From an uncultured Roseburia sp. (GTDB lineage: Bacteria > Bacillota > Clostridia > Lachnospirales > Lachnospiraceae): a stretch of 46,059 bases of DNA. Positions within the stretch are counted from its first letter, which is position 1; every line of letters starts with the position of its first letter. The position numbers were made by a program, and so were the translations under genes. The DNA lies in NCBI GenBank assembly GCA_945787015.1, contig CALZGM010000025.1, positions 1 through 46,059 on the forward strand. Direction: 5' to 3'. The notes under the pieces were generated by a model, which worked only from the letters and a program-made list of their open reading frames with translations, ran no database searches and was not told the origin of the DNA. This document shows, in pieces, positions 12,190-14,700 of this stretch.

Positions 12190-13821
12190 ATGAGAAAATA
12201 TGTGAGATTCATATATGGAATCTGTATTATACTTGTATTTATTATGCTTCTGCTTTTCCACTTTCATGAAAAAACTGTTTCTGTTGTTGCGCGTGAGGAA
12301 GGCAATTATGAAATTCTAGATGACTACGAATTTACTACTTTCGATGATGAAACTGCGCCACTGGGCATTACACAGGAATATAAATGGATTCTTCAAAATA
12401 TCTCACAGCACGATGCCTGTGTTACCTTTTATCTGATTCATCAGGAAGTGGATGTCTATATTGAAGATCATTTAGTTTATAGCTTTGGACGAGAGAGTAA
12501 CCACAATTTTTCCAAGACAACCGGCTGTAGCTGGCCAGAAATTTTTTTGTCTGAAAAAGATGAAGGGAAAGAAATTCGTATCCTTATTCACCCTGTTTAT
12601 AAGTCCAGCATCTCAAATAAGTTAAAGATTTATTATGGAGATCATAGTGTTATAACTAATAATATCATTATAAGAAGTCTGCCGATTTTGGTTATTAGTC
12701 TTTTTTCCATTATCCTTGGCCTGGCTATTGTTTTATTTGTACTTTATAATATTAAAAATTTAGAAGTAGATCGCAGTATCTTCATGCTGGGTGTTTTTTC
12801 TATTGTAATAGGCGTGTGGAAAATTTCTGATATGGAAGCTGCCACTTTGTTATTCAGAGCTCCTATAACACTGTCCGCGCTATCTATTATTTCAATTACT
12901 TTGACGCTTGTTCCATTTATGTACTTTATCCGCAAACAATTTCAGCATACAAATTCTGCTCCTTGGGATTTTGTATGTATGATTGTCAATGTACTTACCA
13001 TTGGAATTGTCTTATTACAGTTATTCGGTATTGCTGATTTGAGAGAAACCCTTTGGGTCAGCCATACTACGATGGTTTCCGTTATTGCTTTTATTCTACT
13101 GATGCTGGTAAAAGAGTTCCGTGTCGGAAAAATCTCACCAAAACTTAAGCTTACATTTTTCTGCTGTATGCTCTGTGCATTTGGTGCTGTCCTGGATATG
13201 TCAATCTACTATATTTCCGGGAATACCGGTAATATGATATTTGGTATACTGGCATTCCAAATCTATGTAATAATAATGGGATATTCTACTTTGAAAGAAA
13301 CCAAGCAGTTAATGGATCGTGGAAAAGAAGCCACTCATTATCAGAAGCTTGCCATGCATGATGAGCTTACCGGTCTTTTTAATCGTGCACATTACTCTGA
13401 TTTTATATCCAATAATGATGTTTTACAAAATGATTGTTTTCTTATCATGATGGATGTAAATAACTTAAAACTATGCAACGACACCCGTGGTCATGAAGCC
13501 GGCGACCACTTGTTAATCAACAGTGCAAACCTAATCCGTCAAGCCTTTCCAAATGGTGTCTGCCATCGTATCGGCGGTGATGAATTCTGTGTTTTTCTTT
13601 GCAATTCCAGTGAAGAAGACTGCAAAACCTGTCTTCACGTTTTTGACAAATTAACGGAAGAATTCAATGCTATGCATCCGGAAGAGTTTCCTGTGCACAT
13701 TGCTTACGGCTATGCCGATCATATTGCAAAAGTTGATTTTGATTTCAGTGATACCCTGCGTCGTGCAGACCGTATGATGTATCAGACGAAGCTTGCAATG
13801 AAAACAAGAGCGACTAGTTGA
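12190..13821 (+). CDS. Membrane diguanylate cyclase (7TMR-like sensor plus GGDEF)
   Basis: 543 aa. One N-terminal helix (residues 8-24) is followed by an outside domain of about 130 residues resembling a 7TMR-DISMED2 jelly-roll, then seven membrane segments (about 160-375) and a GGDEF domain (about 390-540). The active-site loop reads RIGGDEF (near residue 462), and DELTGLFNRAHY marks the domain start, so it should make cyclic di-GMP. The positions where an RxxD inhibitory site would sit read FPNG, so product inhibition is probably absent. It probably senses an external ligand. Its stop (13821) touches the palindromic element that follows. Confidence 0.93.
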   Translation: MRKYVRFIYGICIILVFIMLLLFHFHEKTVSVVAREEGNYEILDDYEFTTFDDETAPLGITQEYKWILQNISQHDACVTFYLIHQEVDVYIEDHLVYSFGRESNHNFSKTTGCSWPEIFLSEKDEGKEIRILIHPVYKSSISNKLKIYYGDHSVITNNIIIRSLPILVISLFSIILGLAIVLFVLYNIKNLEVDRSIFMLGVFSIVIGVWKISDMEAATLLFRAPITLSALSIISITLTLVPFMYFIRKQFQHTNSAPWDFVCMIVNVLTIGIVLLQLFGIADLRETLWVSHTTMVSVIAFILLMLVKEFRVGKISPKLKLTFFCCMLCAFGAVLDMSIYYISGNTGNMIFGILAFQIYVIIMGYSTLKETKQLMDRGKEATHYQKLAMHDELTGLFNRAHYSDFISNNDVLQNDCFLIMMDVNNLKLCNDTRGHEAGDHLLINSANLIRQAFPNGVCHRIGGDEFCVFLCNSSEEDCKTCLHVFDKLTEEFNAMHPEEFPVHIAYGYADHIAKVDFDFSDTLRRADRMMYQTKLAMKTRATS

Positions 13822-13823
13822 AA

Positions 13824-14141
13824 TAGATATTTAGTCCACTAAATTATTTTGACATAAAGTAGTTGCACAATAAGAAAGAGTATCCTTTATTTTTATATGC
13901 GGTTATACATGTATAAGAAACTCTAACATTCCTATATGTAAGTTATTCAAAGCTTACGCGCCGCATCGTAGCGGAGTCCATTCCGCACGATGCTAATTAT
14001 GACCTCCCTGTCATAATTGCGCTAACCATGTAATAGGAATGAAGAGTTTCTAATGCATTCCAAAACGCATTTAAAAATAAGGGATACTCTTTTTTATTGA
14101 AATCTACTTTATGAAAATAATTTAATGAAGCTAAATACCAG
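13824..14141. repeat. Palindromic element 1 (~318 bp) with branched core
   Basis: The two ends are long imperfect inverted arms: TATTTAG at 13828 pairs with CTAAATA ending at 14137, and AAAGAGTATCC near 13875 pairs with GGATACTCTTT near 14082. The arms close on GCGC/GCGC (13958-13961, 14019-14022) enclosing two hairpins. Hairpin A (13963-13993) is GCATCGT...ACGATGC. Hairpin B (13995-14018) is AATTATGAC, a 6-nt loop and GTCATAATT. This would fold into a long stem with a three-way junction. It begins 2 bp after the diguanylate cyclase stop, so it may end that transcript. No open frame of note lies inside. Confidence 0.88.
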
Positions 14142-14170
14142 TTCTAAAAGCTTCACAAGCCCTGAAAAAC

Positions 14171-14489
14171 AAGTATTTTTCTACAGAATTTAATTTATCG
14201 TTACGTATATTGAAGAGAGAAAGAGACAGACATTTTTTCTGTTCGTTTGGGAGCATACTAGAAATTCTTTATCCATATTTCATAACACAGCGCGAAAATG
14301 ACACGACGTCATTTTCAGCATCGTGCGGAATGGACTCCGCTACGATGCGGCGCGTACGTATTAGAAAACTTTCCTATATGGATAATAGAATTTCTTGTAT
14401 GTGTACATCCGAATAGAAAAAAGTCAGTCTCTTTCTCTCTTCCTCAATATACGAAACAATAAATCTAAATTCTGAACAAAATATCTATT
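14171..14489. repeat. Palindromic element 2 (~319 bp), inverted relative to element 1
   Basis: Same plan as element 1 in the opposite orientation. Outer arms: CAGAATTTA near 14183 pairs with TAAATTCTG near 14466, and AGAGAGAAAGAGAC near 14215 pairs with the strand near 14425. They close on GCGC (14290-14293, 14350-14353). Hairpin A (14318-14348) is the exact reverse complement of the 31-nt hairpin in element 1. Hairpin B (14294-14316) is GAAAATGAC/GTCATTTTC, differing from element 1 at three base pairs with both sides changed. Its right end holds the stop codon (14485-14487) of the HTH gene. 29 bp separate the two elements. Confidence 0.88.
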
Positions 14490-14700
14490 CTTCCTCGTCT
14501 CTTTTATACTCTAAGATATCTCCCGGCTGGCAATCTAACACATCGCAGATTGCCTCTAAGGTTGAAAAGCGTATTGCATTTACCTTTCCGGTCTTTAGTT
14601 TTGATAAATTCACATTTGCCACGCCGACTCGTTCAGATAATTCTTTCAAAGACATTTTCCGGTCAGCCATGACGCGGTCTAATCTTAAAATAATAGCCAT
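14485..14700 (-). CDS. Small Cro/CI-type HTH regulator (YozG-like)
   Basis: 71 aa, almost all one HTH_3/HTH_26 domain: MSLKELSERVGVANVNLSKLKTG carries the two DNA-reading helices. YozG-type regulators are normally paired with a DUF2975 membrane protein, as here: the DUF2975 gene ends 13 bp upstream. The pair are probably translated from one mRNA starting at the promoter near 15482-15510. The stop codon lies inside the end of palindromic element 2, so the element has set or replaced the gene's terminator. Confidence 0.9.
   Translation of the reverse strand: MAIILRLDRVMADRKMSLKELSERVGVANVNLSKLKTGKVNAIRFSTLEAICDVLDCQPGDILEYKRDEEE

Follow-up and report, generated by a model that had tools for sequence, protein, structure and literature searches.

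Core inversions and candidate CsrA-docking loops in palindromic TwoAYGGAY elements

Our study showed that the window, by which we mean the whole 46,059-nucleotide stretch of Roseburia sp. DNA analysed here, holds two complete palindromic elements in opposite orientation (13826-14144 and 14170-14489), that both belong to a family already known, Rfam RF01731 (TwoAYGGAY), and that the core of such elements is inverted between collinear flanks in 8 of 25 orthologous elements from two species pairs. We think it probable that these are CsrA-docking RNA elements carried by invertible palindromes, with arms that evolve in concert through copying at the DNA level. In this model, a three-way junction set within long inverted-repeat arms would present GGA-containing, CsrA-type loops on two hairpins. 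The parts of the two copies are as follows.

13826 to 14144, RNA strand minus: element 1, palindromic TwoAYGGAY (fold z -14.0), ends set by comparison with the genome's other copies
13902 to 14065, minus strand: RF01731 core of element 1 (cmscan, 90.3 bits; gathering score 43)
13826 to 13959: outer arm on the RNA 3' side of element 1, pairing with 14019-14144 and with an approximate inner boundary
13963 to 13993, minus strand: hairpin A of element 1, RNA-strand hexaloop AUGGAC (with GGA)
13995 to 14018, minus strand: hairpin B of element 1, RNA-strand loop AGGGAG (with GGA)
14019 to 14144: outer arm of element 1, RNA 5' side, from the inverted repeat and the fold
14145 to 14169: spacer that separates the two tail-to-tail elements; other copies of the genome, for example L049, L019 and L020, have one that by eye looks similar
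14170 to 14489, RNA strand plus: element 2, palindromic TwoAYGGAY (fold z -15.9), ends set by copy comparison
14246 to 14409, plus strand: RF01731 core of element 2 (cmscan, 105.1 bits; gathering score 43)
14170 to 14293: outer arm on the RNA 5' side of element 2, with an approximate inner boundary
14294 to 14316, plus strand: hairpin B of element 2, loop ACGAC (without GGA)
14318 to 14348, plus strand: hairpin A of element 2, hexaloop AUGGAC (with GGA)
14349 to 14489: outer arm of element 2, RNA 3' side, ending in CAAAATATC at the stop codon of the HTH gene

The RNA 5' ends of elements 1 and 2 face each other. Both copies lie between convergent genes and, as the first-pass annotation had noted, abut their ends: the GGDEF gene on the left (12190-13821, plus strand) stops at 13821, and the stop codon (14485-14487) of the HTH gene on the right (14485-14700, minus strand), which is followed by a DUF2975 gene, lies within the last bases of element 2. 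Across the family at large we saw no clear preference for gene ends. For the window copies, the region 13780-14540 has four promoter-like sites against 2.9 expected in shuffles, and the hairpin core has none.

The branched palindromes described in the first-pass annotation are real. The arms are inverted repeats, and either strand of both elements forms on its own a long hairpin that branches at a three-way junction, at energies far below those of shuffled sequence: -128.1 kcal/mol for the RNA strand of element 1 and -133.8 (z -15.6) for its opposite strand, -136.9 and -138.8 (z -13.1) for those of element 2, with none of 100 shuffles as stable in any of the four folds. The 31-nt hairpin A is indeed identical in the two copies, in reverse orientation (0 such matches expected in shuffles), and hairpin B does retain its 9-bp stem (AATTATGAC/GTCATAATT in copy 1, GAAAATGAC/GTCATTTTC in copy 2), three pairs differing between the copies and each of them on both sides. 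Tested for loops of the AYGGAY type, the window holds two GGA loops in element 1 and one in element 2, the hairpin B of which may once have presented a GGA loop as well.

The window copies share sequence, the two hairpins and the external stem with RF01731, score far above its cut-off and match no other Rfam family at gathering score. As anticipated, further copies exist: this genome (G000) has 14 RF01731 matches, hairpin A recurs 19 times with up to three mismatches, several times at contig ends, and the arms give 73 and 75 matching rows, in which palindromic copies are counted more than once. Five contigs of the assembly (C11, C19, C31, C44 and C51) end inside TwoAYGGAY elements, and copy number is probably underestimated as a result. 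The family was found in 24 of 60 genomes of the genus (in some of which all 38 scored candidates matched), in 21 of 150 genomes drawn from the taxonomic family, each of a different genus, in 32 of 341 drawn from the class, 23 of these above the family cut-off, and in none of 14 control genomes; the family and class draws have at least four genomes in common, including two carriers. A published table entry lists TwoAYGGAY as probably an RNA and probably not cis-regulatory, present in the human gut, gamma-Proteobacteria and Clostridiales (PMC2864571), whereas Rfam types it as Cis-reg. The long palindrome, the tail-to-tail pairing and the inversion seen here do not figure in that entry.

Two properties of the core point to an RNA. 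First, its stems covary. In an alignment of 38 sequences (the window's two and 36 of the 52 best-scoring elements, which biases the set towards canonical copies), pairing holds in 91.6% of cells, against 60.7% for shuffled sequence, and two-sided changes occur in 238 cells, against 65.7; such changes affect 19 of the 21 core pairs (15.2 in shuffles, 3 of 500 of which reach 19), and further pair types number 57 against 50.5 (20 of 500). Only six cells show a one-sided change that keeps pairing, so that the pattern is strictly Watson-Crick. Second, of the 280 distinct elements taken from 28 genomes, to which close species contribute orthologues, 268 carry GGA in an inner-core terminal loop on the RNA strand, 215 of them in two or more loops, and only 18 do so on the opposite strand. 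Among the frequent core loops are GCCAUGGACGGC and ACAUGGAUGU. The earlier view that these elements are more than a decaying transposon is supported, and neither of two findings that would have spoken against it, a lack of further copies or a clean target duplication beyond TA, was made. For the core, the excess of paired changes and the one-strand GGA loops favour an RNA; the covariation of the arms and the three changes in hairpin B, to which we return below, need not reflect selection on folding.

In the literature searched, CsrA binding is the sole functional guess that we found for RF01731: TwoAYGGAY was predicted to bind CsrA, whose target sites are GGA motifs in hairpin loops that tend to come in twos, a prediction that its authors call unvalidated (PMC4333381). 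This guess gains support from the one-strand GGA loops and from the co-occurrence of the elements with CsrA. Ignoring kinship, CsrA was detected in 21 of 21 carriers of the family draw, against 82 of 150 genomes overall (Fisher p 1.1e-6), and in 27 of 32 carriers of the class draw, against 111 of 341 (p 2.8e-10), or 19 of 23 when class carriers above the family cut-off are taken (p 4.4e-7). Counted by genus, the figures are 22 of 22 for carriers and 71 of 203 (p 7.8e-12). The class carriers with no detected CsrA (G386, G427, G466, G484 and G528) are less than 90% complete in three cases and more than 90% in two, and for all five another sampled genome of the same genus has CsrA. Within the genus of the window, CsrA is present in 56 of 60 genomes and 23 of 24 carriers, the exception being 68% complete; it is thus near-universal there, which makes the comparison within the genus uninformative. 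CsrA goes with flagella, and flagella could be the real correlate of element carriage instead of CsrA. Several genomes also have divergent CsrA-like genes besides the main one (about 40-65 bits), with five matches in all in G198.

The genome of the window encodes a single CsrA of 72 codons. Its gene lies immediately downstream of fliW, and the first 52 residues of the protein can be aligned with CsrA chains of solved structure. If the RNA strand is transcribed, the GGA loops would most likely dock CsrA, and many copies may act as CsrA-binding RNAs or as decoys in 3'-UTRs. TwoAYGGAY resembles CsrB/CsrC and RsmX/Y/Z in having GGA hairpin loops, generally paired, and in that most carriers have CsrA; it differs from them in a core with at most two or three GGA loops, in its many dispersed copies and in the presence of FliW in this genome. 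FliW is anti-correlated with BarA-UvrY, the activator of CsrB/C, and control of CsrA in common gut bacteria is thought to be exerted by FliW and not by a decoy RNA (PMC4682653). A search for CsrA together with Lachnospiraceae gave nothing relevant in the literature covered. The one-strand loops and the co-occurrence make the CsrA guess testable in common gut bacteria.

At some orthologous loci of related species, the TwoAYGGAY core points in opposite directions. We compared 30 loci of G165, a genome in a single contig, with 29 loci of G163, and the loci of all 15 hits in G185 with those of all 15 in G200, and found the core inverted between collinear flanks at 8 of 25 orthologous elements, five of 18 in the first species pair and three of seven in the second. 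Both flanks were matched in all eight cases and are 93.6-98.5% identical. Four loci (L280, L286, L287 and L388, all in the same orientation) and each of the two elements of the L380 pair were matched on one flank, one row mispairing members of the L380/L299 pair was left out, and G201, G153, G203 and G199 were unusable, giving two locus pairs that share a flank at about 75% identity. Each of the eight flipped orthologues gains more than 100 in alignment score from one inversion of 220-290 bases, and no inversion tried improves the alignment of the remaining 17. In base-level alignments of three flips (212-266 bases), the breakpoints fall within the arms.

In the literature and with the terms searched, we found no report of TwoAYGGAY inversion, nor anything relevant on palindromic repeats or inversion in Roseburia or E. 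rectale, and the inversion of the core, as read from these alignments, appears to be a new observation; among structured RNA elements such behaviour would be new. In invertons, an intergenic core between inverted repeats is invertible. The elements described here likewise have a core between inverted repeats and both orientations at orthologous loci, but the part that flips is an RNA element, and the arms are long and vary from copy to copy. We suggest that the arms pair or recombine as inverted repeats at the DNA level, by template switching or arm-to-arm recombination, and that this would both flip the core in place and copy changes from one arm to the other, keeping each copy self-complementary while the arms diverge between copies.

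In seven genomes (G165, G163, G086, G037, G143, G008 and G115), the arms of the same copy are.70-.85 complementary, and the identity of arms between copies is only.29-.44, with.16-.33 for shuffled arms; in G165, G086, G163 and G143, for instance, complementarity within copies is.85,.84,.82 and.82, and identity between copies.34,.44,.31 and.42 (shuffled.21,.33,.20 and.24). In G066, G122 and G060, arms are shared between copies (.70-.92) and are more alike between than within them, which nearly holds for G042 too; G000, G042 and G170 are intermediate in arm sharing. Among the predicted pairs of the 25 orthologues, 2490 are unchanged and 35 have changed on both sides and still pair, while 59 have changed on one side to a standard pair, 74 are unpaired and 60 gapped. 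The two-sided changes form 30 clusters, 26 of them single pairs.

These data bear on the alternative that the pairing of the long arms is maintained solely by selection for RNA folding, the whole 320-nt hairpin being a functional RNA. It is a possibility that we view with some doubt. It would account for the very low folding energies and the strong covariation of the core, for a mild tilt towards G-U between orthologues (at one-sided changes, G-U against A-C is 24 to 12 in one direction, p.065, and 15 to 11 in the other, p.56, in a count that covers only about half of the predicted base pairs of the 25 orthologues, some profile hits starting late) and for the greater divergence of unpaired sites between G000 and G170 (28 of 149, against about 25 of 484 paired sites, a contrast inflated by the use of a single sequence of the two to define the pairing). 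However, selection on RNA stems should favour G-U intermediates and copying should not, and the isolated mismatches of the outer arms show no clear excess of G-U (144, against 122 A-C, p.20). We counted isolated mismatches since the unfiltered tally, which favours A-C (564 against 426), is inflated by conserved internal loops counted once per copy. Of the 35 two-sided changes, 24 are double transitions, but 11 include a transversion and are therefore not obtainable by a G-U step. Paired bases of the 25 orthologues change at about 3.8% per base, nearly like the flanks (4.5%; unpaired bases about 5.9%), and single elements at tandem genes occur in both orientations.

At the orthologous locus of G170, both window elements keep their orientation; the gene on the left is shared, but the DNA on the right bears no relation to that of the window. 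The same three pairs of hairpin B that distinguish the window copies differ together there in copy 1 and read as in copy 2, as expected of exchange or copying and not of three separate compensations. Together with the G-U and A-C counts and with the near absence from the core of one-sided changes that keep pairing (six cells against 238), this means that the covariation in the arms and in hairpin B need not be the mark of folding selection. The arm data are thus nearer to copying, possibly with a weak contribution of selection at the RNA level, given some G-U tilt and the lower rate of change at paired sites; as evidence for RNA selection the covariation of the arms is weak, and arm-to-arm copying explains it about as well. 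Template switching creates and mends hairpins and inverts loops (PMC8794818), and it produces multi-base, two-sided stem changes in one step together with loop inversion, as here, although it was described there for the stems of RNA genes and the segment that flips in TwoAYGGAY is 220-290 bases long. Strong covariation in long stems may accordingly arise from copying between arms in the DNA and would not by itself prove selection on an RNA fold.

A second alternative is that TwoAYGGAY is a MITE-like mobile element, a palindromic DNA moved by a transposase acting in trans, with incidental RNA features. The family is multi-copy with closely similar subfamilies (the 19 hairpin A matches and the 73 and 75 arm-match rows given above), many copies bear terminal inverted repeats, and terminal motifs are shared, CTAAATAYC in this genome and GGTGTCAAAA in G122, G042 and G060. 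Yet the termini vary between genera and the core is conserved, the GGA loops lie on one strand, and the arms of different copies are barely alike in the seven genomes named above. No clean target duplication beyond TA was seen at the outer-end junctions of six copies of this genome: TA is present in L003, L004 and L005, and L019, L020 and L049 have no direct repeat. We consider this alternative unlikely as an account of the elements as a whole. Of eight relatives of the HTH gene within the genus, only L127 and L129 show the side on which the element would lie, and the element is absent there; their neighbours differ from those of the window locus, and we rejected them as clean empty sites.

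It is improbable that the observed flips are errors of assembly at inverted repeats. Each comparison does involve at least one draft (G163, G185 and G200), but G165 is a single contig, the arms are imperfect, with a longest exact match of 56 bases among the 25 orthologues and of 13-51 in the flipped ones, and the eight flips come from two species pairs with closely matching flanks.

Elements that lie close together are mostly arranged as in the window. Of 36 pairs with a gap below 700, 31 are -+, three ++, two -- and none +-, in a set that includes some partial hits, counts two orthologous loci twice and was drawn from loci chosen for holding hits; eleven wider pairs are mixed (five ++, three -+, two +- and one --). 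Were each element free to flip, close pairs would not be expected to hold to one arrangement, and this tells against the favoured reading. Single elements (n=197) lie between convergent genes in 48 cases, divergent in 37 and tandem in 112, and those between tandem genes are sense in 60 cases and antisense in 52, for which we rejected a fixed cis-regulatory orientation. This count took open reading frames of at least 100 codons, not curated, as genes and dropped 42 elements at contig edges or with no such frame within 900 bases; a cruder one that includes paired elements gave 32 and 33 (110 elements, 22 at edges dropped).

A bolder extension of the favoured reading is that the flip is an orientation switch for CsrA docking, by which read-through RNA from the gene next door would lose both of its GGA loops. 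We regard it as rather unlikely. Were it correct, gut Lachnospiraceae would redistribute CsrA decoys among their transcripts one copy at a time, and the tail-to-tail pairs would be a flip-proof form offering one sense copy to transcription from either side. We think it very improbable that the elements are DNA cruciforms or bidirectional terminators between convergent genes: such genes do flank both window copies, and 12 paired elements (n=41) lie between convergent genes against three between divergent ones, but 26 are at tandem genes, the single elements are spread over all three arrangements, the GGA loops are confined to one strand and terminator-like sites in the window copies number 0 against 0.5 expected, on which the terminator reading was dropped.

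Pairs with a similar spacer occur at several loci of this genome, some with their cores deleted. One of them, L049 (G000:C14:37854-38122), is a tail-to-tail pair that has lost both cores and kept its outer ends, beside which the flanks contain the small inverted repeat CTGTAG/CTACAG. L004 (G000:C24:28934-29249) is a hybrid in which hairpin A lies between two 3'-type arms, one like that of element 2 and one like that of element 1, which looks like the outcome of recombination between the two hairpin A copies of a tail-to-tail pair with loss of the intervening part. L020 and L033 (G000:C3 and C40) combine arms like those of element 2 with a different core, both loops of which are AUGGAU in L020, and the core thus seems to be exchangeable between arm families. 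Lastly, a recurrent TTAGA...TCTTA in the inner arms of many copies, noted by eye, leaves U-U mismatches about ten pairs apart within otherwise complementary arms.
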